From: Synechococcus sp. CC9902
GTDB taxonomy: Bacteria; Cyanobacteriota; Cyanobacteriia; PCC-6307; Cyanobiaceae
Reading direction: 5' to 3'
Assembly (NCBI RefSeq): GCF_000012505.1
Contig: NC_007513.1
Span: 1,860,001 to 1,924,000, forward strand
DNA: 64,000 nt
A program made the position numbers and the translations under genes. Each line of letters starts with the position of its first letter. Within the stretch, counting starts at the first letter, position 1. Shown piece after piece: positions 44,029 through 57,454 of this stretch. The notes beneath the pieces were generated by a model that saw only the letters and a program-made list of their open reading frames with translations, ran no database searches and was not told where the DNA came from.

Positions 44029-44652
44029 ATGGCAATAAGCACAAACGAAAATGAACGCAAGGGGCCGCTCAAGCCATGCTCACTACAAGCAGGGCAGAGG
44101 CTCATACTCACCAAGCCAATTCACAACTGGCCAACAACAATCGTTGCCACGCAAGGAATAATCCGATTATCGACCGTTGAAAATGAAAGCCATCCAGAAA
44201 TCACAGTGGCGCTTATGTCGTCGTTAGACGACTGCAAGTTCTGCCATCCCGGCTCAGAGAATCTACAAATCGAAGCCATAACAGACTGCATCATCAAGAT
44301 CAACAATGAACAAAAAGTCCATGCTGCTAACGATGACTTTCTCCAGGAATGGATTTTTAGACTGTATACAGTAAGACATCCGATCAAGTCAGAAGATCGG
44401 CTTAAGTCTTTACTCCAGCTTTTAATTATCAGGCTTGGCAAACGAACGCCAGAAGGTTACAAGCTTCAATTTTTACTATCTCATTCTCGACTCGCAGAGA
44501 TGATTGGTACGACAAGGTCAACAGTGAGCCGGTCGCTCGGAGCACTTAAGGACAAGGGAATTATTTCAATCGATGAAATGAAAGAAGAACTCGTCGTCAG
44601 AGATTCAGAACTAATCCCGACCACAGCGACAAGAGTTACCCTTCCACTTTGA
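44029..44652 (+). CDS. Crp/Fnr-family transcription regulator
   Basis: The 207-residue protein has a reduced cupin-like sensor part and a C-terminal winged helix-turn-helix: RLAEMIGTTRSTVSRSLGALKDKGII (about residues 160-185). The cAMP-binding residues of true Crp are not recognisable. It is related in layout to the second regulator at 54093. In marine Synechococcus such proteins include NtcA and PtrA; this is not NtcA by sequence. Its position before the SLH porin suggests local control (inference). The start at 44029 lacks a clear Shine-Dalgarno. Confidence 0.82.
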   Translation: MAISTNENERKGPLKPCSLQAGQRLILTKPIHNWPTTIVATQGIIRLSTVENESHPEITVALMSSLDDCKFCHPGSENLQIEAITDCIIKINNEQKVHAANDDFLQEWIFRLYTVRHPIKSEDRLKSLLQLLIIRLGKRTPEGYKLQFLLSHSRLAEMIGTTRSTVSRSLGALKDKGIISIDEMKEELVVRDSELIPTTATRVTLPL

Positions 44653-45016
44653 ACATTTTGACTTTTTGCAACCTTTTTTTTTGCTCACCTTGCCCAGATT
44701 ATTTTTAGGATTCGTAGAGGCATTCATTCAGCCAGCAACTCCTACTGCTGTTCTCGACACCTAAGTTACAAGACCCTGGCCTTCGGATAAAAATGGGTTG
44801 CAAACAAATGAAAGAAAAGCACTTCAGGATGAATCAATCGGCACATCCATCACGGTGTCCGCGGGAATAGCGAGCCTTGGGAGCGCTAAAACGGAACCCG
44901 AAGAGCGATCAAATGAAACATTGGATTAAGGGGTTTTGTTACGTCGAATACCTTCTGAACAAATCAAAATGAATGAGCCCAAGAATTTGGGCATTTCCTG
45001 TGTGAGGAACCATTCA
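44653..45016 (+). promoter_or_regulatory. Upstream region of SLH porin 1
   Basis: This 364-bp gap begins with T-rich runs after the regulator gene (about 44659-44690), possibly a weak terminator. A GCCCAA-GAAT-TTGGGC hairpin lies at 44977-44992, and GAGGA about 8 bases before the ATG at 45017 is the likely ribosome site. The porin promoter should lie here, in contrast to porin 2, which has almost no room for one. Confidence 0.4.
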
Positions 45017-46591
45017 ATGAAGCTTTTCCAGCAAATGCTGGTGGCTCCTGCCGCCCTGGGCCTTCTGGCCTCCGGCGCCAATGCCGCCGAGCTCAACATC
45101 AACGGCGTTTCTGACTACGCGGCTTCTGCCGACCAAGTCACCAGCGTTACCCAATTCTCCGACGTTTACCCAACTGACTGGGCCTATCAGGCGCTCAGCA
45201 ACTTGGTTGAGCAGTACGGCTGCGTCGCTGGTTACCCCAACGGCACCTTCCGCGGCAACCGGGCGATGACCCGTTACGAGGCTGCAGCACTGCTGAACGC
45301 ATGTCTCGACCGCGTCACTGAAGTGACCGACGAACTGCGTCGCCTTCTCAAAGAATTCGAAACCGAACTCGCCATCCTCCGCGGACGCGTTGACGGCCTC
45401 GAAGCTCGTGTTGGCGAACTGGAAGCAACCCAGTTCTCCACCACCACCAAGCTGCAAGGCAAAGCCGATTTCTTCCTTGGCGCTGTCAAATACGAAGACC
45501 GCAATAAGTGCAACAACAAGGGCGGTGATTGCAACAGCGACGGCACCAACATGTCGTACCGCTACACACTCAACCTGAACACATCCTTCACCGGCAAGGA
45601 TCGCTTGTATACCCGTCTGCGCGCGGGCAACATGGCAAACGTCTGGACACAAACAGACTCCTACCTGGCTGACGCCAAGAAAGGGGATAACACCCTGAAA
45701 ATTGACAAGCTCTGGTATACATTCCCGATCGGTTCTGAGTTCACAGCCACCATTGGTGCGCTGGTTGAGAACTACTACATGATCGAGACACCGACTCGCT
45801 ACAAGCCCATCCTCAAAGCATTCAAGCTTGGTGGATACGGTTCTGTCTTAGGTGCAAGCACAGGCCAAGGCTTCGGTCTGCAGTGGCGTCAAGACGTTGA
45901 TCCAGGCGAAGCAGCTTTAAACATCGCTGCTAACTACGTGGCCGACGGCGGCGACGGTGCCAAGAGCGACCCTAAAGAAGGCATGTTCGGTGAAAACACC
46001 GATGCTTACTTCTTAAGCCAAGTGGGCTACGGAAATCGCCAGTGGCATGTTTCAGCACTTTATTCGCTGAAAAATGCCGGCCAGCACTGTGCCGTAGAAA
46101 ACGCCAGAGGCCGATGCATTGAAACCAGCAGCGGTGCAAAAGCTGCCATGGGTTATTCAACGCCCTTAGCTAAGGATCTTGGCCATCCGATGCACGCCAT
46201 CGGTCTTCGTGGCTATTGGCAGCCCGAAGATTCTGGCTTCATTCCCACCATCAGTGCAGGTGTCGACTTCGGTTATGCCGAAGGTGAATACCGCGGCAAT
46301 GCCGAAGCTCTGAAGGGCTGGATGGTTGGCCTCAACTGGAACGATGCATTCATCGAGGGCAACAAACTGGGACTGGGCTTCGGCTCTTACTCCAGCTACG
46401 CCACTGATGCCAAAGACGTATCGACCGGTGATGAAGCCAACTTCGCCATTGAGGGTTACTACGACTTCGCAGTCAGCGACAACATCACCATTACTCCTGC
46501 GATCTTCTGGGTTGACAACGCTTACGGCGAAGCTCAAATCAGCGGCCAGAACAAATTTGGTGGTCTTGTAAAAACCACTTTCAAATTCTAG
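45017..46591 (+). CDS. Outer-membrane porin with SLH domain (SomA-like, OprB family)
   Basis: The 524-residue precursor has a clear signal peptide (MKLFQQMLVAPAALGLLASG, cleaved near ANA-AE). One SLH domain follows (FSDVYPTDWAYQALSNLVEQ ... YPNGTFRGNRAMTRYEAAAL), then a coiled coil (LRRLLKEFETELAILRGRVD), then a beta-barrel of the cyanobacterial carbohydrate-porin type ending in phenylalanine (KTTFKF). The SLH part anchors to the cell wall. Cysteine pairs in a surface loop (NKCNNKGGDC) are unusual. The ATG at 45017 is preferred over the longer frame because it starts the signal peptide. It shares an identical 324-bp block with porin 2. Confidence 0.92.
   Translation: MKLFQQMLVAPAALGLLASGANAAELNINGVSDYAASADQVTSVTQFSDVYPTDWAYQALSNLVEQYGCVAGYPNGTFRGNRAMTRYEAAALLNACLDRVTEVTDELRRLLKEFETELAILRGRVDGLEARVGELEATQFSTTTKLQGKADFFLGAVKYEDRNKCNNKGGDCNSDGTNMSYRYTLNLNTSFTGKDRLYTRLRAGNMANVWTQTDSYLADAKKGDNTLKIDKLWYTFPIGSEFTATIGALVENYYMIETPTRYKPILKAFKLGGYGSVLGASTGQGFGLQWRQDVDPGEAALNIAANYVADGGDGAKSDPKEGMFGENTDAYFLSQVGYGNRQWHVSALYSLKNAGQHCAVENARGRCIETSSGAKAAMGYSTPLAKDLGHPMHAIGLRGYWQPEDSGFIPTISAGVDFGYAEGEYRGNAEALKGWMVGLNWNDAFIEGNKLGLGFGSYSSYATDAKDVSTGDEANFAIEGYYDFAVSDNITITPAIFWVDNAYGEAQISGQNKFGGLVKTTFKF
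45130..45453 (+). repeat. Long direct repeat, copy 1 (SLH-coiled-coil block of porin 1)
   Basis: By direct reading these 324 bases are identical to 56017-56340, same strand, offset 10,887 bp. The block encodes the SLH domain and coiled coil. Identity ends sharply on both sides, as expected after gene conversion or recombination rather than protein-level conservation alone. Confidence 0.95.
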
Positions 46592-46628
46592 TTTAACGAC
46601 TAGTTCTTGATTGATTTAACTCATAATC

Positions 46629-46653
46629 AAAGCGCCCTTTAGGGCGCTTTTTT
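46629..46653 (+). terminator. Rho-independent terminator after porin 1
   Basis: AAAGCGCCCT (46629-46638) pairs with AGGGCGCTTT (46641-46650), followed by a T-run. It is 38 bp after the porin stop. Confidence 0.85.
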
Positions 46654-46730
46654 ATTGGAAATAAGAATAACAGGGCAACGATGAGTTACAAGCAGGCAAA
46701 GAATCGCAAGCAATTAAAAAGAGCTGGCAC

Positions 46731-46756
46731 AAAAAAAGCGCCTAAAAGGCGCTTTT
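46731..46756 (-). terminator. Rho-independent terminator for the minus-strand gene at 46801
   Basis: On the minus strand AAAAGCGCC pairs with GGCGCTTTT around a five-base loop, followed by a run of T. It is 45 bp beyond that gene's stop. Its stem resembles the porin terminator on the other side of the convergent gap. Confidence 0.75.
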
Positions 46757-46800
46757 AGCATTAGTTGATTCCATAACCAGCAGAACCAACAATTAAAAAA

Positions 46801-47034
46801 CTACCAACAGTTTTCACCTTCGCCAATAGGCACACAAACATCTTCGGCCATCGCTTTTTTCTTCAAGGCCTTGGCATCTGAATCAGGGATACTCTTTTCA
46901 TCCACCGCCTGATCAGTCGACCATTCCTGGAGACCGCCAGCAGATTGCGCCTGAACAGCGATACCTGAGGTGGCAGAAGCAACAAGCAACGATGTGGCGG
47001 CTAAAAACAGAGATACAGGTGAAGTCTTTGGCAT
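46801..47034 (-). CDS. Small secreted protein, unknown function
   Basis: The 77-residue precursor has a signal peptide (SPVSLFLAATSLLVASATSG) with a likely cleavage after AQA or VQA. The short mature part is acidic/lysine-rich and ends with two cysteines (EDVCVPIGEGENCW). I used the ATG at 47034 because the signal starts there; the frame to 47109 adds an unconvincing hydrophobic stretch. It follows the PiuC-like gene on the same strand with 83 bp between. No family recognised. Confidence 0.6.
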   Translation of the reverse strand: MPKTSPVSLFLAATSLLVASATSGIAVQAQSAGGLQEWSTDQAVDEKSIPDSDAKALKKKAMAEDVCVPIGEGENCW

Positions 47035-47117
47035 GTTCAGCAGGTAAAAAACTATTATGAAAAAGGAGGGGAGACAAAAGACAACATCAGACACTTCACC
47101 AAGTAACAAAAAGCACT

Positions 47118-47786
47118 TTAGCGGCCAGAGAGGCGTCTGACGGCATTGGCATACGCTTGAAAAATTAAGTCGAGTTCATCGGATCGTCCGTGACGAGCCA
47201 ACAAACCTTTCGCCCCTGCATCTAAATTAAATAAAAGTGAGCGATCTTCAGTGGATTGAATGTAACTTTCAATCCAACCTACACAGACCAATCTCACACC
47301 ACTTGAAATAGGTTGGACACAATGCAATGATGAGCTCGGATAAAGAATAATCTGCCCAGCGGGAAGACGAATTTCTTTCGAACCCTGCAAAAGCTGAAAT
47401 GTAAGCTCCCCCCCTTCATAGTCAGAGAGATCACTGAGAAATAGGGTAAAAGAAAGATCACGACGTCCATGCTTCGAAAATGGGTTGTCCACGTGCCATC
47501 CATATCCGTCTCCAACTTCGCTTCGAGAAATCAGGATGCTATGGACCCTACGAATCAGTGCAAAGCTCTTCAAAAGAGGACTGTCAATAATTTTTTGTTC
47601 AACAATCTCAGCAATCGATCGTGCCAAAGGCAATGAGGGATCAAGTTGACGATTGTGCTTAACAAGGGCTGCATGCTCACCAGCCGTAAGCCGGCCATCA
47701 AGCCAAATCGACTCACGGTTGGTGAGTTCACTCGTCAACTGAAGCGTCTCCTCGACGCCCAAAAGCTCCGAGGTCAGAAAATCCAT
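47118..47786 (-). CDS. PiuC-type Fe(II)/2-oxoglutarate-dependent hydroxylase
   Basis: The 222-residue protein matches the PKHD-type hydroxylase family (PiuC), often found with iron-uptake genes. The iron-binding HxD is in YGWHVDNPFSKHGRRDLSFT, and the second histidine with the 2-oxoglutarate arginine is in SSSLHCVQPISSGVRLVCVGW. The ATG at 47786 (MDFLTSELLGVEE) fits the family; the longer frame to 47867 is unlikely. It is divergent from futA, 121 bp away, which supports a link to iron supply. Confidence 0.88.
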   Translation of the reverse strand: MDFLTSELLGVEETLQLTSELTNRESIWLDGRLTAGEHAALVKHNRQLDPSLPLARSIAEIVEQKIIDSPLLKSFALIRRVHSILISRSEVGDGYGWHVDNPFSKHGRRDLSFTLFLSDLSDYEGGELTFQLLQGSKEIRLPAGQIILYPSSSLHCVQPISSGVRLVCVGWIESYIQSTEDRSLLFNLDAGAKGLLARHGRSDELDLIFQAYANAVRRLSGR

Positions 47787-47907
47787 GGCGCGGAAAAAGA
47801 ACAGAACACAGCGAAACAGGCTTGTATCATTTGATCCATGAAACCGCGTAACATTCGACAGGCCCAAAGGCCATCAATCAATAGGATCTTATAAACAAAA
47901 AGCTGTA

Positions 47908-48921
47908 ATGGGTCAATCATCTTTGTTAGTTGCGTTCTTAGCAATAGGAATGCCACTAGCCAATACACTACCTGGCTTCGCGAAAGAAGTTCGCGTCTAC
48001 TCAGGTCGGCACTACAACACTGATCGCCAGGTTTTTAAAACATTTAGCGAAAACACTGGCATTAAAGTTCGCTTAATTGAAGCAACTGGCATCACACTAA
48101 TCGAAAGATTAAAACGCGAAGGAAACAACTCAAACGCAGATGTCATTTTACTCGTTGACTCTGCTCGCATTAATAATGCCGCAAAAGAAGGATTATTGGC
48201 ACCTATCCAATCCGAACAAATTAAAAAAAATGTTCCAGCAAGATATAGAGATCCAAGTAATCGATGGTTTGGGCTCACAAGGCGGGTAAGAGCAATCATT
48301 GTCAATCCAAAACTCGTTGATCCGAACAGCATCAAAACCTATGCAGATTTAGCCAAACCAAATCTGAAAGGTAAACTCTGCCTCCGAAAACGTAAAAATG
48401 TATACAACCAATCCCTTGTTGCAGATCAAATCGTCTTAAAGGGAGAAGCCAGCGCAACAAACTGGGTAAAAAGCATGGTTAGAAATGTGAATCAGCCATT
48501 TTTTGGTGGAGATACATCACTAATCAGAGCGGTTGGACAAGGCAAATGTGCTGTGGGTGTTGTTAATCACTATTACTTGGCCAGGATGCAAGCTGGCGCA
48601 AGCGGACAAAACGATCAGCAACTCACCCAGTCAATCAAGTTGATCATGCCAAACCCGGCCCATGTGAATATCAGTGCGGCCGGCATGGCAAAATCCGCCA
48701 AAAATAAAAAGGAAGCAATCGCATTGATTACATATCTAACATCGCCAAAAGGTAGTGCATCGATTGCTGGACCAACCTACGAATATCCTTTGAATGGTTT
48801 TGGAACAGCGAGCCAACTGAAGAATTTTGGTCGCTTCAATCCAGACAATGTATCGATCAGCCAACTAGGAGAAACACAAAAAAGGGCCATCCAGATCATG
48901 GCAAACAGTGGATGGCGTTAA
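47908..48921 (+). CDS. futA: Ferric iron ABC transporter substrate-binding protein (FutA/IdiA)
   Basis: The 337-residue protein has a signal peptide (LLVAFLAIGMPLANTLPGFA) and the mature start EVRVYSGRHYNTDRQVFKTF, the hallmark of FutA/IdiA proteins that bind Fe(III) through tyrosines. LRKRKNVYNQSLVADQI and NHYYLARM follow, with the paired tyrosines. In marine cyanobacteria IdiA rises under iron limitation. The permease and ATPase genes are not adjacent. Confidence 0.93.
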   Translation: MGQSSLLVAFLAIGMPLANTLPGFAKEVRVYSGRHYNTDRQVFKTFSENTGIKVRLIEATGITLIERLKREGNNSNADVILLVDSARINNAAKEGLLAPIQSEQIKKNVPARYRDPSNRWFGLTRRVRAIIVNPKLVDPNSIKTYADLAKPNLKGKLCLRKRKNVYNQSLVADQIVLKGEASATNWVKSMVRNVNQPFFGGDTSLIRAVGQGKCAVGVVNHYYLARMQAGASGQNDQQLTQSIKLIMPNPAHVNISAAGMAKSAKNKKEAIALITYLTSPKGSASIAGPTYEYPLNGFGTASQLKNFGRFNPDNVSISQLGETQKRAIQIMANSGWR

Positions 48922-48944
48922 TCTCAGAAAGTAATTAACAGTGG

Positions 48945-48970
48945 ACCATGGCGACGAGCATCGCCATGGT
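48945..48970 (+). terminator. Hairpin after futA
   Basis: ACCATGGCGA (48945-48954) pairs perfectly with TCGCCATGGT (48961-48970) around a six-base loop, 23 bp after the futA stop. Only TTCT follows, so termination may be weak. Confidence 0.55.
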
Positions 48971-48973
48971 TTC

Positions 48974-48988
48974 TGATAATGACTATCA
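48974..48988 (+). promoter_or_regulatory. Putative Fur box upstream of ferritin gene
   Basis: TGATAAT-G-ACTATCA matches the 7-1-7 Fur consensus TGATAATnATTATCA at 13 of 14 positions. It is 88 bp upstream of the ferritin ATG and just past the futA hairpin, consistent with an operator in the ferritin promoter. Confidence 0.6.
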
Positions 48989-49075
48989 ATAAACCAGGTG
49001 AAATTAACACCACATGCATGCATTAATGATGCAATCGGTTATGTTGACAAGACAAATAATTGGAAGAATTTAAAA

Positions 49076-49663
49076 ATGACGCAATCAACTGCAGCATCAA
49101 CCTCTCGTAATTCTGTTCTCGTTGGGCCTTCTGGTCGAGCTCTCGCAGAGCCCATAGCGGAGGATTTACTCAACGGGCTGCAACATCATCTCAATATGGA
49201 GCGTCAGGCCCATGCCAATTATTTTGCAGCGGCTGTCTGGTTTGCAGAGCGTGAACTGAGGGGATTTGCACGTTATTTCCGCGAAGAATCACAAAGCGAA
49301 CACGGACATGCTGCACAATTTGCTGAGTACTTAATTGCCCGTGGACAATCTGTCGATTTACAACCACTTGAGGCACCAAATCAAGTGTGGGATGCTCCAA
49401 CAAACGTATTTGCAACATCGTTTTTGATGGAAGCTGATATCACCGCCTCCCTCCATCAGCTCTATGCACTTGGCGAACATGCATCAGATGTAAGAACGAC
49501 CGTCTTCCTGGATCCCATGGTTGATCAACAAACCCAGGCTGAGAACGAGTTTGCCTATCTCCTGGGTCGGGTGCGCTTTGCAGGAGACGATAAATCGGCA
49601 TTGCTGATCATTGATAATGAGCTTTATCAAGGACAACATCAACCAGCCACACTCAAAGAATAG
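49076..49663 (+). CDS. Ferritin
   Basis: The 195-residue protein is a prokaryotic-type ferritin that oxidises Fe(II) and stores it in a 24-subunit shell. Ferroxidase ligands are visible in NMERQAHANYF (Glu42, Tyr49) and EESQSEHGHAAQFAEYL (Glu75, His78), with further acidic ligands in the C-terminal helices (QAENEFAYLLG). It resembles the ferritin described from Synechococcus CC9311 as I recall it. The ATG at 49076 is chosen because upstream sequence (to 48998) is unconserved. An N-terminal Ser/Thr tail of about 20 residues is present. Confidence 0.93.
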   Translation: MTQSTAASTSRNSVLVGPSGRALAEPIAEDLLNGLQHHLNMERQAHANYFAAAVWFAERELRGFARYFREESQSEHGHAAQFAEYLIARGQSVDLQPLEAPNQVWDAPTNVFATSFLMEADITASLHQLYALGEHASDVRTTVFLDPMVDQQTQAENEFAYLLGRVRFAGDDKSALLIIDNELYQGQHQPATLKE

Positions 49664-49687
49664 AATTGAATGCATCAATAATACATA

Positions 49688-49718
49688 AAGGCTTGCATTT
49701 AAATCGTGTAAGCCTTTT
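49688..49718 (+). terminator. Rho-independent terminator after ferritin
   Basis: AAGGCTTGCA (49688-49697) pairs with TGTAAGCCTT (49707-49716) with one G-T pair, followed by TTT. It is 24 bp after the ferritin stop. Confidence 0.75.
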
Positions 49719-49879
49719 TAATTGCAGTACAAAATTAATATTCAGAAAATGAGAATAATCAGAGAATCATTTAGCACGTCAAGATCTGACAATGAATACT
49801 CGCGCACTACTCAATACTCGCCGCTCGATACACGGTTATTTTTTATTATATATCTTGCGAATAGGTTGTTTTCAACAAG

Positions 49880-50563
49880 ATGCGTTTCTGCACTTCATTC
49901 TCAAGGATAAGAGGAAGCATATTAAAGATTAGCTTATTATCAACTCTTTTGATGGGTGCTGAGAGCAAAGCGCACCAATTCTTCGATGAAGCTAAACACG
50001 AATCAACCTACAGCTTGATCCAGGAACTACAGAAAGGGGGAAAGATCATATATATGAGACATGCAGCAACAAAGACTGACTGGGCTGATCAAGCATCTCT
50101 TGAATTATCACTGGATGATTGCTCAACACAAAGAGAGCTCAGCGCGGCGGGGAAATTACAAGCAATGAAAATCGGCGATTCACTCAGAAATCATGATGTA
50201 CCGATAGGTCGTGTCATATCAAGCGAATATTGCCGAGCGATTGATACGGCACAACTTTCATTCGGAGAACATGAAACAAACAAAGCACTTAATTTTCTTC
50301 CATGCGAGGTATGTACAGAAAGTGATAACGAGATCTATCGACAGAGACTTTTGCCCCTACTTTCCCAATCCATCGATCAAAAACAAAATCTGGTTTTAGT
50401 CGGTCATGATGACCCATTTGAAGCCATTACGGGGATCTATCCAGAGCCTATGGGCATTATCTTTATTATCGAACCAAAAGAGAAGCAGACTTTCAACATA
50501 CTGGGATCAATTCATCCAGAAGACTTGATCAAGTTTAAACCCAACAGGAGAGATGAAAAATGA
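49880..50563 (+). CDS. Secreted histidine phosphatase family protein
   Basis: The 227-residue protein has a signal-like N-terminus (ILKISLLSTLLMGAESKA) and a histidine-phosphatase domain: catalytic histidine in YMRHAATKTDW (Arg60, His61), SSEYCRAIDTA, and the second catalytic histidine in LVLVGHDDPFEAITG (His176), then EPMGIIFIIEP. Such extracytoplasmic branch-2/SixA-like phosphatases act on unknown phosphoesters. It heads a compact gene set with the next three genes and overlaps the following one by four bases. Confidence 0.85.
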   Translation: MRFCTSFSRIRGSILKISLLSTLLMGAESKAHQFFDEAKHESTYSLIQELQKGGKIIYMRHAATKTDWADQASLELSLDDCSTQRELSAAGKLQAMKIGDSLRNHDVPIGRVISSEYCRAIDTAQLSFGEHETNKALNFLPCEVCTESDNEIYRQRLLPLLSQSIDQKQNLVLVGHDDPFEAITGIYPEPMGIIFIIEPKEKQTFNILGSIHPEDLIKFKPNRRDEK

Positions 50564-50757
50564 TTCAGCCAAATACAAAGTCCAAGATCATTGACATTTA
50601 CCTGGCCTCAATAACATCCAGAAGAATTACACGCAAATCACATCAATCAGTGTTGAAACTATGCCGGTCGGCAGATAGGTCGGAGCAAAAACTCATAAAA
50701 TATCTAGAGACCAAAATAGCAAATGGGACAATTCAAGTGAAGGAAGAAGATGCCTGA
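50560..50757 (+). CDS. Small hypothetical protein, coupled to the phosphatase gene
   Basis: The 65-residue basic protein starts MIQPNTKSKIIDIYLASITS and contains RRITRKSHQSVLKLCRSADR. Its ATG overlaps the preceding stop as ATGA, which favours real, coupled translation. It is predicted helical and without membrane segments. No family is recognised. The next gene starts 96 bp later. Confidence 0.6.
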   Translation: MIQPNTKSKIIDIYLASITSRRITRKSHQSVLKLCRSADRSEQKLIKYLETKIANGTIQVKEEDA

Positions 50758-50853
50758 ATGACATCGTTAGAGGTATCATTCGAAACATCAGAATGTAGAA
50801 GGGTGTAACTACCGCTTACATGCGCGGGCATACTAATAAAAATCGCATTTATA

Positions 50854-51627
50854 ATGAGTCCATCACCGATCCTATGGATTGATTTACAGCCCACTCTTCA
50901 CTGCTTTAATCAACGCCTTGCCAAGAGACTCTCAAAAAATAGACTGGTAAAACGTTGGTCATTCCAACATGATTTAGATGAGGCATGTAGCATAGAAACA
51001 ATACATTCAATGATGCTTGAAACAATTAATGAAGGGAAGGAAAGATATCATCTAGTTGGGCATGGAATTAGCGGCGGCATAGCTCATCTATTTTCATGCA
51101 AATACCCTAAATTAGTACGCTCAGCAACTTTACTGTCAGCCGATACGGCAATAACAAACCAATGGACATCTCATTATCTAGAAATGAGAAGTCAGCTGCC
51201 ATGTAGCCGAGAGAGAATTTTGTTTCATCTCTCTTCTCAACTATTTGGGAGTGACTTGTCTAGGAAGTTTCCTATTTTCGCATCACTGCTCGCGAAGTGT
51301 TTAGATGAAGAATATATTCTTGGATCGATCGCCTCTCAAATCAAGCGAGGCAGATTCAAAGCATCGGATATCCCAACACTCGTTATCAATGGGAATGACG
51401 ACTTCGTCATCGATCGAACGACTCACACCCGATGGAGCGAACAACTTAAGCCTGGTGACCACTATCGCGCCATAGACAATGCTCGTCATTTCTTTCACCA
51501 CCAGGAAGCAAATCAAACTGCAACCATTATTGAGTCATTCCTAGACATGGTTCCCGAAGAGGAAATGATCAATAGCTTAACGATCAAAAGCGACTGCTCG
51601 CCTACAAAAATCACCAACAATGACTGA
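50854..51627 (+). CDS. Alpha/beta-hydrolase-fold protein
   Basis: The 257-residue protein has the fold order of alpha/beta hydrolases: WIDLQPTLHCFNQRLAKRL, a nucleophile elbow YHLVGHGISGGIAHLF, an acid in LVINGNDDFVID, and a histidine in NARHFFHHQEAN. The elbow reads GHGISGG instead of the usual GHSxGG, so the nucleophile is either the shifted serine or missing. The substrate is unknown. The stop overlaps the next gene by eight bases. Confidence 0.8.
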   Translation: MSPSPILWIDLQPTLHCFNQRLAKRLSKNRLVKRWSFQHDLDEACSIETIHSMMLETINEGKERYHLVGHGISGGIAHLFSCKYPKLVRSATLLSADTAITNQWTSHYLEMRSQLPCSRERILFHLSSQLFGSDLSRKFPIFASLLAKCLDEEYILGSIASQIKRGRFKASDIPTLVINGNDDFVIDRTTHTRWSEQLKPGDHYRAIDNARHFFHHQEANQTATIIESFLDMVPEEEMINSLTIKSDCSPTKITNND

Positions 51628-52579
51628 CTTCATCGACTCAGACGTACTCATTATTGGCGGAGGGCCTGCCGGATGTGCTTGCGCTCTATACACAGCAAGA
51701 TCATCAATCAAAACACAAATACTTGATAAAAACCCTGCCGTGGGTGCTTTGGCCATCACCCATCAGATCGCCAATTATCCAGGAGTAACAGGAGCTGTAT
51801 CAGGAGCAGATCTATTAAAATCAATGCGAGATCAAGCCGTAGGCTATGGAGCTAACTATCAGCAGGCTCAGGTATATGGTATCGATCTAAGCTCAGATAA
51901 AAAGATTGTATATACACCGGAGGGAACATTTCGAGGGAAAACTCTTGTTTTAGCAACGGGAGCAATGGGACGCGCATCTACACTTCCCGGTGAAAGTGAA
52001 TATCTTGGCCGAGGAGTTAGTTATTGTGCCACATGTGATGCTGCCTTCTATAAACAACAAGAGGTGGCTGTCTATGGGGCAAATCAGGAGGCAATTGATG
52101 AGGCTATGGTATTAATTAAGTTCGCATCTAAAGTACATTGGATCACGAAGAGTAAGCCTAGGCCTTCAATACAGGGCGTCGAGACGTTACTGAACTCTCC
52201 AAACATTCAGTGGTGGAAGCGTACACAACTGATGGAGATAGAGGGCGACGAGTCAGGAGTTAATCAGATCAAAATTTTAGAGGGTGGCAAACAAGAACCG
52301 CAAATATTAAAAACCAACGGAGTCTTCGTTTATTCAACTGGGTCGATGCCAATTACTGAATATTTGCAAGGGCAGATTCCCTTAAATAATGAAGGTGGAG
52401 TTCAAGTTGATGAAAACATGAAAACCAATATTGATGGTGTTTGGGCCATCGGCGATATTAGAAATACTCCATTTAAGCAAGCCGTCGTTGCCTGCTCTGA
52501 TGGATGCATTGCTGCAATGTCGATTGACAAATACTTAAACCAGCGCAAAGAGATTCGGGTGGACTGGGTTCACCGATAA
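51620..52579 (+). CDS. Thioredoxin-reductase-like flavoprotein lacking the NADPH motif
   Basis: The 319-residue protein has the FAD site GGGPAG (residues 13-18), a redox-active CATC (136-139, SYCATCDAAF), and the second FAD motif GVWAIGDIRNTP. The NADPH domain is altered: where TrxR has GGGxxA and HRRxxxR, this reads YGANQEAIDEA and ITKSKPRPS. The FAD-domain stretch GALAITHQIANYPG also differs from TrxR (GQL). These features recall cyanobacterial TrxR-like enzymes that do not use NADPH (DDOR/DTR-type, from memory). It is coupled to the hydrolase gene and converges on flavodoxin, a possible electron partner. Confidence 0.85.
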   Translation: MTDFIDSDVLIIGGGPAGCACALYTARSSIKTQILDKNPAVGALAITHQIANYPGVTGAVSGADLLKSMRDQAVGYGANYQQAQVYGIDLSSDKKIVYTPEGTFRGKTLVLATGAMGRASTLPGESEYLGRGVSYCATCDAAFYKQQEVAVYGANQEAIDEAMVLIKFASKVHWITKSKPRPSIQGVETLLNSPNIQWWKRTQLMEIEGDESGVNQIKILEGGKQEPQILKTNGVFVYSTGSMPITEYLQGQIPLNNEGGVQVDENMKTNIDGVWAIGDIRNTPFKQAVVACSDGCIAAMSIDKYLNQRKEIRVDWVHR

Positions 52580-52632
52580 AGAGCCTGTATTGACTACAAG
52601 ATCTTTATCGGCCACACAATCAAAAAAGGAGT

Positions 52633-53142
52633 CTATGCCTCACTATTAATCTGTTGAACCCAAGCCGCTAAGCGCTGATCCGATAGCTCAGATTCGTTAT
52701 CTTCATCAATCGGTAGTCCACAGAACTTACCATCTATAACACTCTTAGAGGCATCAAAAGTATAGCCAGCCGTAGGTACTTTCCCAATAAGTTTGGCTCC
52801 AGATTGAAGAAAAGCTGTATATAGTTCTTCCATGGCATCGCAGAAAAAATCTGAGTAGCCAGAGGAATCACCTAGCCCAAGAATCGCGACAGATTTGCCA
52901 GCAAAATCAAGATTTGGAATTTCTTGAGCAAGATCATCCCATGCCGTTCCAGACCTTGCTTCGTCGGCTCCCGTGTTCCATGTCGGGACGCAGCACACGA
53001 GTGCGTCAGCCGCGACAAGTTCATCAGAGGAGCCAAGATTATCAACATCTTTTGCTTCTGCACCCGGAAGAAGCTCTTTCAAACGGTCTGCGACGTCTTC
53101 GGTTTTACCAGTTGATGTCGCAAAAAAAATGGTGAAAGTCAT
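52633..53142 (-). CDS. isiB: Flavodoxin
   Basis: The 169-residue FMN protein replaces ferredoxin in photosynthetic electron transfer during iron limitation. The phosphate-binding loop is FFATSTGKTEDVA; PTWNTGADE and LGLGDSSGYSDFFCDAM hold the isoalloxazine ring. The length is typical of long-chain flavodoxin. The ATG at 53142 begins the first beta strand (MTFTIFF); the frame to 53160 adds six residues. It converges on the flavoprotein gene, 53 bp away. Confidence 0.96.
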   Translation of the reverse strand: MTFTIFFATSTGKTEDVADRLKELLPGAEAKDVDNLGSSDELVAADALVCCVPTWNTGADEARSGTAWDDLAQEIPNLDFAGKSVAILGLGDSSGYSDFFCDAMEELYTAFLQSGAKLIGKVPTAGYTFDASKSVIDGKFCGLPIDEDNESELSDQRLAAWVQQINSEA

Positions 53143-53260
53143 GACATTATTTGAACTCAATTATTCTGACGTCAGGCTCTACCACCATGTTTTTTTGTGA
53201 TGCATTTAAAAGTCATTATTACTACATACGATGCCCTCATTGTTTCAGTGTATAGGGCAC

Positions 53261-53491
53261 TCAATTGAGATTAAATCTTGGTGTATAGGGTTCCGAAAAG
53301 GCTCGCTCTATCCGGCCCCATTTCCTGACAAGCCAAGAATTACCAGGCTCCATCAGCAACTCTGCAAACTCTAAAAGAGCTTGATCGAACCCTGCTGTTC
53401 TCACCCGATTCAGCCAGCGCTGACGTTCAAGCGACGACGTCTCAATGTGATCGACAAATATTTCTACGACAATATTTTCAGTAAGGTTCAT
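53261..53491 (-). CDS. Small hypothetical protein upstream of flavodoxin
   Basis: The 76-residue frame starts MNLTENIVVEIFVDHIETSS and continues with a helical, Trp/Arg/Glu-rich part (ERQRWLNRVRTAGFDQALLE). It is soluble, with no motif I know. It lies 118 bp upstream of flavodoxin on the same strand and could share its transcript. I consider it moderately likely to be real. Confidence 0.5.
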   Translation of the reverse strand: MNLTENIVVEIFVDHIETSSLERQRWLNRVRTAGFDQALLEFAELLMEPGNSWLVRKWGRIERAFSEPYTPRFNLN

Positions 53492-53796
53492 CAGCGGAGC
53501 TGCTTAGGAACCCAACATAAATATTCGATCGACATACCGATGTTTATGATGAACATAATCTGGTATCTTTTTATTCAGACCGAACAAGTGAATTGCATCC
53601 CATTAAAATTCCACGATAATGATTACATTGGCCATTGAAAAAGCCAAGACGCTTTGACAAAATAAATAAATACAGCCCTCGTTAATCGTATGCACTATAA
53701 ATTAATGCTTGAAAATATAATTAACTGCAATGAGCCGGTTTGAATTTAAAATCTTTATTGCCACATCAAGCAATCAAGCGAGGAAGGCTTGGATTG
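53492..53796. other. AT-rich gap between two minus-strand genes
   Basis: The 305 bases show no credible gene. They should contain the promoter for the 53261-53491 gene and the end of the transcript from 54096. No clear hairpin-plus-T-run or operator was found. Confidence 0.35.
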
Positions 53797-54096
53797 TCAA
53801 TTTCTTGACATCAATAATGCATAGTTTTCATTTACTGCCCTATTTATGAGCTCTTTCATCAAACGAAGCTGACAAGATTCAGAGAATCCAAAACCCTCGA
53901 GACGACGAACAACACCTTGCATCTCTAAACAGCGTTGAAAATGTGCGTTGAGTTCAAAAGAAAATCGACGCCGAAGGCCAGCGTTATTACAGCGATCTAA
54001 TGCAACATGAACAGTGGCCAGTCTTTTCCAAAGATATTCGGCTTCCCCACACAAATCACCAAGAAGTCCCATTGTTCCATGAGTCATGGTGCTCAA
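53797..54096 (-). CDS. Hypothetical protein coupled to Crp-family regulator
   Basis: The 99-residue protein starts MSTMTHGTMGLLGDLCGEAE and is predicted all-helical (LWKRLATVHVALDRCNNAGL, FELNAHFQRCLEMQGVVRRL). Its start overlaps the regulator stop (ATGA), so the two are probably translated together and may work together. No family recognised. Confidence 0.65.
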   Translation of the reverse strand: MSTMTHGTMGLLGDLCGEAEYLWKRLATVHVALDRCNNAGLRRRFSFELNAHFQRCLEMQGVVRRLEGFGFSESCQLRLMKELINRAVNENYALLMSRN

Positions 54097-54731
54097 AAGG
54101 TCAGTGGGGATGATTCAACTAAGGCTGGCGAAAGCCTGGTTGTGAGATCGATCGACGACATTTCGACCAGATCAGACTGACGCCATTTGGAGAGCAATCG
54201 AGTCGTTGTTACACGAGTGGCACCGATGAGCTCACCAAAGCGTTCGTGGGTCAAACGAAAGGGCAATTGAAAACAATCACTTCGCCGCATCCCCAAGCGA
54301 TTCACTAAGAGAACCAACAACGCATGCAACCGCTGCTCAGCCTGGCCTAGGTGGCGAACACGCAATAGCTGCAATGTCCATTCGTTGACGGCATCCATGC
54401 CCAGCTCGTCGGCACTCACGGCATCTCGCCGAAACTTCAGAGCGGTTAAGGCTTCGACGCAAGCACCATCACTACAGAGGCGATCCGTTCGTAGACGATC
54501 CCCGGATTGCAGAAATGCCAGGGTCATCCCTTCGGTTTCCTCGCATGGGCAGTACACACGACAAACCCCTTCCATCACTTCAAGAACTGTGGCCTGCTCA
54601 CGACCAGCCGGATCCAGCAACACAGTCTGCTGGCGAGGCATCGACATCGGAGCAACCGAATCATCGGGCAAAAAACGGTAGGCAGAAGCCGTCACAACTA
54701 TTGCGATTGAGAATTGGTTGCAAGAGTACAA
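54093..54731 (-). CDS. Crp/Fnr-family transcription regulator
   Basis: The 212-residue frame has a degenerate sensor part and a winged helix-turn-helix at RFGELIGATRVTTTRLLSKWRQSDLVEM (about residues 165-192). The layout, including the helix before the HTH (LQLLRVRHLGQAEQRLHALLVLLVNRLG), parallels the regulator at 44029, so they are paralogues. A shorter start at the ATG 54647 (MSMPRQQTVLLD) is quite possible. cAMP-contact residues are not seen. A Fur-like sequence lies just upstream. Confidence 0.8.
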   Translation of the reverse strand: MYSCNQFSIAIVVTASAYRFLPDDSVAPMSMPRQQTVLLDPAGREQATVLEVMEGVCRVYCPCEETEGMTLAFLQSGDRLRTDRLCSDGACVEALTALKFRRDAVSADELGMDAVNEWTLQLLRVRHLGQAEQRLHALLVLLVNRLGMRRSDCFQLPFRLTHERFGELIGATRVTTTRLLSKWRQSDLVEMSSIDLTTRLSPALVESSPLTF

Positions 54732-55029
54732 GCGCGCTGCTGAAAATGCAAGTCATTCTCAATAAGAGGAGGGTCTTGAGATTTGTTGTGTTGAAAATGT
54801 GACAGAGGCTCGCGCAGCGACTCAAGCAAGAGTGTTTTCAACAGCTGGGCGTCGCCCTGAATTCGCAACATGGGGCCAATCGGGTTACGGAGATCGAATC
54901 AGTGTCTGCTCTCCGCAAAACAAGCCGATAACGCATCCCACATATTTATGTAATGAATGAGTGCAGAGCTTGTACCAACACTTGAGAAGCATTTATGGCA
55001 GAAGCAAGAGCTGCCCTTAATGTGTGTTT
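54732..55029. other. Divergent intergenic region upstream of the riboswitch
   Basis: This stretch holds promoter space for the Crp-family gene (minus) and the riboswitch-hupE transcript (plus). Apart from the weak Fur-like site I see no structure or gene. Confidence 0.35.
54748..54762. promoter_or_regulatory. Weak Fur-box-like sequence upstream of Crp-family regulator
   Basis: TGCAAGT-C-ATTCTCA matches the 7-1-7 Fur consensus in about 10 of 14 positions, one half-site being good (ATTCTCA against ATTATCA). It could put this regulator under iron control, but the match is near chance level. Confidence 0.25.
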
Positions 55030-55147
55030 TCTGGTTTCAGCAGTGAGCAGCTGCTGATGGAAACGGGGAAAGAGCGGTGAAAGTCCGTCGCTGTCCCGCA
55101 GCTGTGAAGCGTCTCCGCGAGGGCCGTCAGTCAGAACGCCCGCCAGA
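55030..55147 (+). ncRNA. Cobalamin (B12) riboswitch
   Basis: The sequence contains the conserved core GGGGAAAGAGCGGTGAAAGT followed by CCGTCGCTGTCCCGCAGCTGTGAAGC, and the B12-box region CAGTCAGAACGCCCGCCAGA, in the correct order and spacing. The outer stem can form from TCTGG at 55030-55034 and CCAGA at 55143-55147. It ends 24 bases before the start of a HupE-type transporter gene, which it should switch off when cobalamin is plentiful. The boundaries are approximate. Confidence 0.93.
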
Positions 55148-55171
55148 CCTTCAAACGACGAGGATCGACTT

Positions 55172-55804
55172 TTGACTTTTTCAATCCAGGGCTGCCAGCG
55201 GCCAATCAGGTGGGCTGCCCTAGGAATCATTCCGCTGCTTCTTCTCGGAAGCCCCGCCTTCGCTCACCACCCTTTCGGAATGGGTGACAGCAGCCAGCTC
55301 ACCGGATGGACCGGTCTTGTGAGCGGTATTGGCCACCCCCTCCTAGGGCCGGACCATTTGCTCTTTCTGCTGGCCATCGCCTTCATCGGCCTCAAGCGAC
55401 CAGTTGCCTGGATTTTGCCAATGCTGGCTATCGGCTTGGGCGGCAGCTTGATCTCACAGTTCGTCCCCCTGCCCGATGTCGTCGCACCCTGGGCTGAAGC
55501 TCTTGTGTCGTTAAGCCTCGTGGTGGAAGGACTCATCGCCCTTTCGGTTGCACCAGCAACCTGGCTTTTGCCATTGTTCGGACTGCATGGCTTTCTTCTG
55601 GGGAGCACCATTGTTGGGGCTGAGCCCACTCCTCTTCTGGCCTATTTCTTTGGCTTACTGATTGGCCAAGGTGTTCTGCTAACCCTTGTTTGCTCCGTAT
55701 CGCAAACCGTCATCAGTCGCCTTGGAGAACAAGGACGTCGACTCGGTGCTGGGATCTGGATTGGCATTGGAATTGCATTTGCCTGGGTGGCACTGATCGA
55801 CTAA
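55172..55804 (+). CDS. hupE: HupE/UreJ-type transporter, B12-riboswitch controlled (probable cobalt uptake)
   Basis: The 210-residue protein has a signal-like first helix (LGIIPLLLLGSPAFA) ending at AHHPFG, then about six more hydrophobic segments. GIGHPLLGPDHLLFLLAIAF is the HupE/UreJ metal-site signature (HPxxGPDH). Family members move nickel or cobalt; a B12 riboswitch upstream makes cobalt most likely. The start is a TTG at 55172 preceded by GAGGA; no ATG is available before the signal helix. Confidence 0.88.
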   Translation: MTFSIQGCQRPIRWAALGIIPLLLLGSPAFAHHPFGMGDSSQLTGWTGLVSGIGHPLLGPDHLLFLLAIAFIGLKRPVAWILPMLAIGLGGSLISQFVPLPDVVAPWAEALVSLSLVVEGLIALSVAPATWLLPLFGLHGFLLGSTIVGAEPTPLLAYFFGLLIGQGVLLTLVCSVSQTVISRLGEQGRRLGAGIWIGIGIAFAWVALID

Positions 55805-55842
55805 TAACGCCGTTATTCAGACAAACAAACTTCATGCCATCT

Positions 55843-55873
55843 CCTCCTTATCGTTCGATAAGGAGGTTTTTTT
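55843..55873 (+). terminator. Rho-independent terminator after hupE
   Basis: CCTCCTTATC (55843-55852) pairs with GATAAGGAGG (55857-55866) around GTTC, followed by seven T. It stands 39 bp after hupE and only 24 bp before the porin 2 start codon. Confidence 0.9.
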
Positions 55874-55897
55874 ATTCAACATTGTTCCAACACGGTC

Positions 55898-57454
55898 ATG
55901 GAATTCGTCCAGTCAATCCTCATAGCTTCTGCTGTCTTCGGTGGTCTGGCCTCGACGGGAGAGCCCAACCTCAACGGCGTTTCTGACGACGCGGCGCGTT
56001 CGCTTGAAAACAGCCGCGACCAAGTCACCAGCGTTACCCAATTCTCCGACGTTTACCCAACTGACTGGGCCTATCAGGCGCTCAGCAACTTGGTTGAGCA
56101 GTACGGCTGCGTCGCTGGTTACCCCAACGGCACCTTCCGCGGCAACCGGGCGATGACCCGTTACGAGGCTGCAGCACTGCTGAACGCATGTCTCGACCGC
56201 GTCACTGAAGTGACCGACGAACTGCGTCGCCTTCTCAAAGAATTCGAAACCGAACTCGCCATCCTCCGCGGACGCGTTGACGGCCTCGAAGCTCGTGTTG
56301 GCGAACTGGAAGCAACCCAGTTCTCCACCACCACCAAGCTCAAGGGTGTCGCCACCTTCGTGGTGGGTGCCAATCAATTTCGAGGCTCGGCCAATGCTCT
56401 GAAACAACACAGCAATGGAGGCTTCGGAGCTACAAGCTTGAACAACGACCTTCAACTCAATCTCGAAACGAGCTTCACCGGTGAAGACCAACTCACCAGC
56501 GTGCTGCGCGCTGGCAACTTCAATGGGGATAACAATGTTTTTAGCGGAGCCGGCCCTACAACACTCTCAACCCTGGAAACGGCATTTCAAGAGGGAGACC
56601 ACCCAAATCAGTTAACACTCGACAAACTTTTTTATTCGTTCCCTATTGGATCGCACCTGACAGTGACCGCAGGTCCACGCGTGGGTCAGGAAGACATGTT
56701 GGCGATCTGGCCAAGCTTCTACCCGAGTGATGCAATTCTCGATGTGCTCACCCTGAATGGTGCGCCGGCCGCTTACAACAAAAACCTCGGCGCTGGAGCC
56801 GGCCTCCGCTGGGATGCCCCCACTGGCTTCCGCTTTTCAGCCAATTACGTAGCAGCCAACGGATCGAGAAGCACAACAAGCGAAGGGGGGCTCGCAACAA
56901 AGGATGCAGGGAGCACTGGAACGGTACAAATCGGTTACGCGCGAGAGGAATTGACCCTTGCCGCGATTTATACCGCGATCCAAAACGGCGACGATCTCAT
57001 CACGTATGCCAGCCCATTCACCCAAACATCATTGAGTGCCACGGGCATGACCCATGCCTTCGGCCTCGGCGGAGCCTGGCAAGGACTGGACGAGCGCTGG
57101 ATCCCCTCAATCTCGGCGGGGTGGGGCATCAACGTGAGCGATACATCCCAGAACGGCGACGTTCAAACCAGTCAGTCTTGGACGGCAGGCTTGGAGTGGG
57201 ACAACATTTTTATGGATAGCACCAGCGTCGGCATCGCCGTTGGACAACCTGTCTTCGCAACCGATCTCAAGGGTCAAAACACCCCAAACGATGGTCAGTT
57301 CATCTGGGAGGCATGGCTTCAGATGAACGTGACGGATGCGATCACAGTGACGCCTGCCTTGTTTTATTTGTCACGCCCACTGGGACAAGACACTCCCAGA
57401 GGAGAAACCTTTGAACAACTCGGAGGCCTTGCTAAAATTACATTTAAATTCTAA
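55898..57454 (+). CDS. Outer-membrane porin with SLH domain, second copy (chimeric N-terminus)
   Basis: The 518-residue frame carries the same SLH domain and coiled coil as porin 1 and then a quite different beta-barrel ending in KITFKF. The first 20 residues (MEFVQSILIASAVFGGLAST) are a weak substitute for a signal peptide: no basic residue follows Met and no clear AxA site is seen. There is no Shine-Dalgarno, and the hupE terminator ends 24 bp upstream, leaving no promoter. Expression may depend on read-through or recombination. Otherwise it has no frameshift, so it is not an obvious pseudogene. Confidence 0.85.
   Translation: MEFVQSILIASAVFGGLASTGEPNLNGVSDDAARSLENSRDQVTSVTQFSDVYPTDWAYQALSNLVEQYGCVAGYPNGTFRGNRAMTRYEAAALLNACLDRVTEVTDELRRLLKEFETELAILRGRVDGLEARVGELEATQFSTTTKLKGVATFVVGANQFRGSANALKQHSNGGFGATSLNNDLQLNLETSFTGEDQLTSVLRAGNFNGDNNVFSGAGPTTLSTLETAFQEGDHPNQLTLDKLFYSFPIGSHLTVTAGPRVGQEDMLAIWPSFYPSDAILDVLTLNGAPAAYNKNLGAGAGLRWDAPTGFRFSANYVAANGSRSTTSEGGLATKDAGSTGTVQIGYAREELTLAAIYTAIQNGDDLITYASPFTQTSLSATGMTHAFGLGGAWQGLDERWIPSISAGWGINVSDTSQNGDVQTSQSWTAGLEWDNIFMDSTSVGIAVGQPVFATDLKGQNTPNDGQFIWEAWLQMNVTDAITVTPALFYLSRPLGQDTPRGETFEQLGGLAKITFKF
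56017..56340 (+). repeat. Long direct repeat, copy 2 (SLH-coiled-coil block of porin 2)
   Basis: The 324 bases are identical to 45130-45453. A further 17-bp match (TCAACGGCGTTTCTGAC) lies just upstream in both genes, separated from the block by unequal, diverged spacers. Confidence 0.95.

Follow-up and report, generated by a model that had tools for sequence, protein, structure and literature searches.

Domain-limited concerted evolution of the wall anchor and stalk in paralogous outer-membrane porins of Synechococcus

How can two porin genes of one genome be base-for-base identical over their anchor-coding part and differ strongly over the rest? The question is raised by a stretch of 64,000 nucleotides from Synechococcus sp. 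CC9902 (contig NC_007513.1, positions 1,860,001 to 1,924,000; hereafter the window), in which two genes for porins with an SLH and an OprB domain, POR1 and POR2, share a block of 324 bp and flank a group of iron and redox genes. An earlier note on this DNA attributed the identity to recent gene conversion or duplication and proposed that the repeats could serve as a porin-switching or island-excision device. Comparison with the porins of related genomes makes it very probable that the pattern results from concerted evolution limited to the porin anchor and stalk and caused by recurrent gene conversion.

Exact alignment of positions 45130-45453 with 56017-56340, both on the plus strand, gives 324 equal bases of 324 with 0 mismatches, in agreement with the earlier note, and these coordinates are exactly the limits of the maximal exact run; a repeat search recovered the same pair, with a spacing of 10,887. 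Such a match is far beyond chance. On the ungapped diagonal outside the block, 18/60 bases are identical in the preceding bin and 21/60 in the following one (a later bin, at 45541, still reaches 33/60), and 5' of the block the repeat search found an additional offset stretch of 35 nt with 91% similarity. The barrels of POR1 and POR2 indeed differ strongly, with 45% nucleotide and 32% residue identity.

The SLH and OprB domains of both window porins score above the Pfam curated cut-offs. In POR1, numbered from the ATG at 45017, the SLH match (residues ~47-90) lies inside the block and the OprB match starts at residue ~107, already within the stalk. An AlphaFold prediction of POR1 (single chain, 30 sequences, mean pLDDT 69, with low confidence in the SLH part) places helices, at low to moderate confidence, at residues 86-124 and 129-138, and the first barrel strand at residues 144-160 (pLDDT ~80). 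Residues 38-151 match Veillonella OmpM by sequence, and a fold search listed many general porins besides OprB and OmpM. The identical block thus comprises the SLH wall anchor together with the predicted helical stalk and ends where the barrel is predicted to begin; the motif at this junction, FSTTTK/L (the slash marks the junction), is found in 66 of the 74 porins compared below.

The repeat is not restricted to the window. The complete genome sequence (G000; 2,234,828 bases, one contig) contains four copies at 100%, the two extra ones, at 336047 and 337806, belonging to a tandem porin pair (336 and 338 kb) far from the window, and a genome-wide profile search for OprB matched the same four genes only, one of which appears as two separate hits. 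Block matches were detected in 54 of the 59 genomes searched (G000 included), and within the genus 33 of 34 genomes have at least one, the number ranging from 1 to 9 per genome. An assembly artefact is unlikely, because the same pattern recurs in other single-contig genomes.

Of the 34 genomes of the genus, 20 were sampled for porins. Among 92 porin-like open reading frames (ORFs) found, the 76 of at least 440 aa were aligned and 74 were used for trees and quartets, two aligned porins with fewer than 90 block codons being left out; contig-end fragments and frameshifted porin genes were not counted. Some porins in G023, G003, G032 and G027 are split over several reading frames, through either gene decay or sequencing errors.

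The barrels form ten classes, of which classes 0, 1, 2 and 3 have 16, 13, 13 and 13 members, respectively; POR1 belongs to class 0 and POR2 to class 3. The block and the barrel have different histories. On the block tree (74 porins, 20 genomes), the genome label changes 30 times (minimum 19; shuffled mean 61.0, lowest 56), whereas on the barrel tree of the same porins it changes 66 times (shuffled mean 60.8). The same contrast was obtained with quartets, each combining two genomes and two shared porin classes, for all genome pairs and class pairs and with one porin used per quartet where a genome had two of one class: paralogues are closer to each other than orthologues in 256/271 block quartets, among them 53/55 quartets of the POR1 and POR2 classes, and in 0/271 barrel quartets, although the quartets are not independent, as genomes recur in many of them. 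Most porins of a relative carry their own genome's version of the block, and the barrels stay orthologous. This pattern bears directly on a recent whole-porin duplication with rapid barrel divergence thereafter; the earlier note had left duplication as an option. The tandem pair of G000, with its related barrels (0.74 nucleotide identity), speaks in favor of such a duplication, but barrel classes 0-3 are shared across genomes of the genus (13-16 members each), the barrels group by class in every one of the 271 quartets and the barrel tree contradicts it, so that this scenario appears extremely unlikely.

The homogenisation extends to synonymous positions. In G000, 6/6 paralogue pairs are identical over the 321 block bases that form whole codons, with barrels at 0.45-0.74 nucleotide identity, and the median identity at four-fold sites over these pairs is 1.00 in the block and 0.35 in the barrel. 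Over the whole sample, the median four-fold identity of the block is 0.894 between different-class paralogues within a genome versus 0.650 when same-class genes are compared across genomes, the corresponding third-position medians being 0.906 and 0.680; 69 of the 114 within-genome different-class pairs, spanning 17 of the 18 multi-porin genomes, exceed 0.85 at four-fold sites. Individual substitutions can also be followed. The blocks of G000 and of its close relative G014 differ at six sites, each fixed in all 4 copies of G000 and in every G014 copy having the site (5 copies at five sites, 4 at one); therefore, changes acquired since the two lineages separated have spread to all copies. When polarised by the outgroup G027 (one copy), four of these changes are assigned to the G014 branch and one to the G000 branch, the sixth being ambiguous. 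Over 136 pairs of genomes, each with a homogenised set, fixed differences have a median of 37 (range 1-85) and shared polymorphic sites a median of 0 (maximum 5), and between the homogenised sets of different genomes the anchor block shows a median of 6 residue differences in 107, with the reservation that the sets in both comparisons were preselected at >=94% identity, which favors the concerted-evolution reading. Purifying selection combined with codon bias, without recombination, would be compatible with this conservation of the anchor between genomes, but it is contradicted by the synonymous sites, given that third positions are less alike between same-class genes of different genomes than between different-class paralogues of one genome, and by the presence of lineage-specific substitutions in all copies; we give this explanation practically no chance. 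The conversion anticipated in the earlier note is thus borne out by the block and barrel trees, the quartets, the four-fold sites and the lineage-fixed substitutions.

The limits of the homogenised tract were determined in 58 homogenised within-genome pairs, preselected at 95%. On the right, the edge falls between -12 and +15 bases from a single codon, that of the FSTTTK/L junction, and the left edge is variable, from -144 to +18. The 5' edge was also compared for the POR2 tract: where G000 carries the common sequence, a shorter, different stretch is found in G014 and G027, which suggests conversion in G000 after its split from G014 and G027.

The four porin genes of G000 belong to a paralogous family with a common SLH wall anchor and predicted helical stalk, in which recurrent non-reciprocal recombination (gene conversion) among the copies very probably keeps the anchor and stalk identical or nearly so in each genome. 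The barrels are probably too diverged for recombination and retain their separate orthologous identities. The right tract end falls at the stalk/barrel junction, as would be expected if homology stops there, and the left end varies within the leader. The enzymology would presumably be homologous recombination of the RecA type, and purifying selection on the anchor would probably hold the copies similar enough for continued conversion.

Several observations weigh against this interpretation or narrow its reach. Orthologues are favored in 14 of the 271 block quartets, with 1 tie, and paralogues in 0/7 quartets involving class 6 or 7; the divergent classes 6-9 are not homogenised, and G032 is without any pair at >=94%. 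At four-fold sites, 45 of the 114 within-genome different-class pairs are not above 0.85, 244 of 2584 between-genome pairs also exceed this value, and the lower quartile of within-genome block identity is 0.747. Furthermore, a gap and three private differences are found in the block of the G014 POR2 copy, and the conversion events are reconstructed from sequence patterns.

The earlier note had gone beyond conversion in suggesting a device in which recombination between the repeats would remove the iron block or release it as a circle and would place the POR2 barrel behind the POR1 promoter. Two facts fit such a device, namely, that the copies are exact same-strand direct repeats 10.9 kb apart and that the island is missing from this place in G006 and G032. 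However, G000 has four copies, two of which are unlinked to the island, and the gene neighborhoods, mapped in 18 stretches from 17 genomes besides the window's own, point in another direction. A CRP-like gene (33-92% identical to that of the window) lies upstream of the POR1-type barrel in 14/15 cases, the exception being G007, where no match for this gene was found, and hupE lies upstream of the POR2-type barrel in 12/13 cases, the exception being the second locus of G020. In none of the 18 mapped stretches does a barrel follow the upstream gene typical of the other barrel type, and the junction of POR1 upstream sequence with a POR2 barrel, which the earlier note suggested to look for in relatives, was not encountered there either. 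In 8 of the 18 stretches (G001, G003, G008, G009, G019, G021, G029 and G033), POR1 and POR2 are convergent, and therefore a crossover would invert the intervening DNA, not excise it. In G006 and G032, hupE and POR2 are kept, and the CRP gene and POR1 are missing; this is the wrong remnant, because block-by-block deletion would keep the CRP gene and lose hupE. Elsewhere in these two genomes, FutA has only a 44-45% relative, and nothing closely related to the island's second regulator was found. In the two closest relatives, G014 and G027 (the latter represented by a 14-kb piece), the island is collinear with the window. None of the 20 region proteins scanned with Pfam, a subset of all ORFs and including three without a family, belongs to a recombinase family. 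Taken together, the four copies, linkage, orientation, remnants and collinearity do not support a switching or excision device, which we consider very unlikely; occasional deletion by homologous recombination in culture is possible, as for any direct repeat.

The mapped stretches vary in other ways as well. The POR2 position is taken in G020, G023 and G026 by a more distant porin (54-56%) without hupE; in G007 there is no full porin at this position, in G031 POR1 is present with no POR2 nearby, and the POR2 gene of G027 is broken into several ORFs. The iron/redox block (44029-57454) itself shifts place: it lies with psaA/psaB on one side and lipA on the other in six mapped genomes (that of the window among them), stands elsewhere with convergent porins in eight, and is absent in G006 and G032. 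The import of barrel alleles, with the block as a landing pad, was also considered and set aside. POR1 of G027 is 70% identical to that of the window, a low value within the 69-97% spread of its island proteins. This hint is weak, as the G027 island proteins vary widely and the DNA left of POR1 is diverged, too. In a tree of unexamined support, the G027 POR1 barrel stands apart from those of G000 and G014.

The features of the window region are collected in the table. The POR2 leader (55898-56016) starts with MEFVQ and lacks an early basic residue, which is unusual for a signal peptide; the leader in G014 resembles that of the window, and the POR2 leader of G027 has two arginines.

Table. Porin genes, shared block and neighboring genes in the window
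Feature	Position	Strand	Basis and remarks
SLH-OprB porin 1 (POR1, class 0)	45017..46591	+	Pfam SLH 2e-10, OprB 9.9e-19; ORF listed from 44936 (TTG), ATG 45017 inferred as start
Identical block copy A, SLH domain and predicted helical stalk	45130..45453	+	POR1 residues 39-146
SLH-OprB porin 2 (POR2, class 3), hupE upstream	55898..57454	+	Pfam SLH 1.4e-9, OprB 3.6e-15
Identical block copy B	56017..56340	+	POR2 residues 41-148
CRP-like regulator upstream of POR1	44029..44652	+	Pfam HTH_Crp_2
Iron/redox block between porins: 2OG-Fe oxygenase (PiuC-like), solute-binding protein (FutA-like), ferritin, histidine phosphatase, hydrolase, FAD oxidoreductase, flavodoxin, second CRP-like regulator	46804..54752	.	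Pfam; gene order in relatives; Pfam scan gave no family for ORFs 53264 and 53800
hupE/ureJ-like gene, upstream of POR2	55172..55804	+	Pfam HupE_UreJ

Outside the genus, 16 distant genomes were searched for OprB, and porins, not always all of them, were obtained from 10, with 49 of 54 long ORFs aligned; G034 and G038 provided one porin each and so no pairs, and eight genomes of other cyanobacterial families gave pairs. These eight yielded 125 within-genome pairs, of which 4 have a four-fold identity above 0.85. The most alike blocks reach 0.975 nucleotide identity in G052, versus 0.526 for the barrels, and 0.961 versus 0.556 in G053. Judging by these sequences, conversion of the same segment seems to occur outside the genus, but sporadically; near-complete homogenisation is, in the present sample, a feature of this genus. 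Synechococcus phage S-SRM01, from a reservoir Synechococcus, encodes an annotated porin (MW015081.1, 184931-186391), the SLH and stalk block of which is 72% identical to that of the window. No close match pointing to a phage source of the block was found, only two records of this one phage with the 72% block.

Among other outer-membrane proteins, the bab and hom paralogues of Helicobacter pylori combine segments that are homogenised with others that are divergent; they encode adhesins, with exchange between loci. In the porins described here, in contrast, no barrel exchange between loci was seen, and their homogenised part is the periplasmic wall anchor. Among cyanobacterial genes, concerted evolution has been described for the psbA and psbD paralogues, and, in the passages available from that study, paralogues within a genome are closer than orthologues, recurrently across species, as is the case here (PMC6053082); unlike in the cases presented in those passages, the porins are homogenised in one 324-bp domain only, the rest of the gene being orthologous. 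The main text of that paper never mentions porin, Synechococcus or Prochlorococcus.

The architecture of the block has a counterpart in OmpM of Veillonella (PDB 8bym, 8bys and 8byt), with an SLH domain, a triple coiled-coil stalk and a trimeric barrel; OmpM tethers the outer membrane, and V. parvula has four paralogues, according to the available passages (PMC10628300). The likeness consists in an SLH domain joined to a barrel by a stalk, the latter predicted in the window porins, and by analogy the window porins may form trimers. That study addresses tethering and uptake, and the passages in question do not discuss stalk homogenisation. SomA/SomB and the iron-uptake porins of cyanobacteria are related to the porins of the window (PMC3170327, PMC9723758), and several OprB-like porins of Synechococcus genomes are described as iron-responsive (PMC9723758). 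The first of these papers reports that dN/dS is raised in the N-terminal part of one porin gene (PMC3170327); the term gene conversion has 0 occurrences in it and is absent from the passages of the second (PMC9723758). A literature search at the level of titles and abstract openings, with subscription journals mostly outside its coverage, revealed no paper recognisable as dealing with gene conversion in SLH porins of cyanobacteria. Concerted evolution among paralogues as such is well known, and the search brought up no report of it for cyanobacterial porins.

Why the anchor and stalk should be kept uniform can be addressed only tentatively. The stalk and anchor could be a per-genome common module that the porins need, either for mixed trimers or for binding the same strain-specific wall polymer, an idea we regard as rather unlikely on present evidence. 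If it is true, a variant in one copy would be tolerated only after spreading to all, genus-wide stalk homogenisation with freely diversifying barrels would be the expected signature, and porins of classes 6-9, with their diverged stalks, would be those assembling separately; if stalk identity is selected, mixed porin trimers are predicted. On the practical side, short reads or probes inside the block cannot distinguish the porins of one strain, and trees of whole porin sequences blend two histories. What looked like a recombination device thus turns out to be, very probably, a clear natural example of concerted evolution confined to one domain, in the outer-membrane porins of a marine phototroph.

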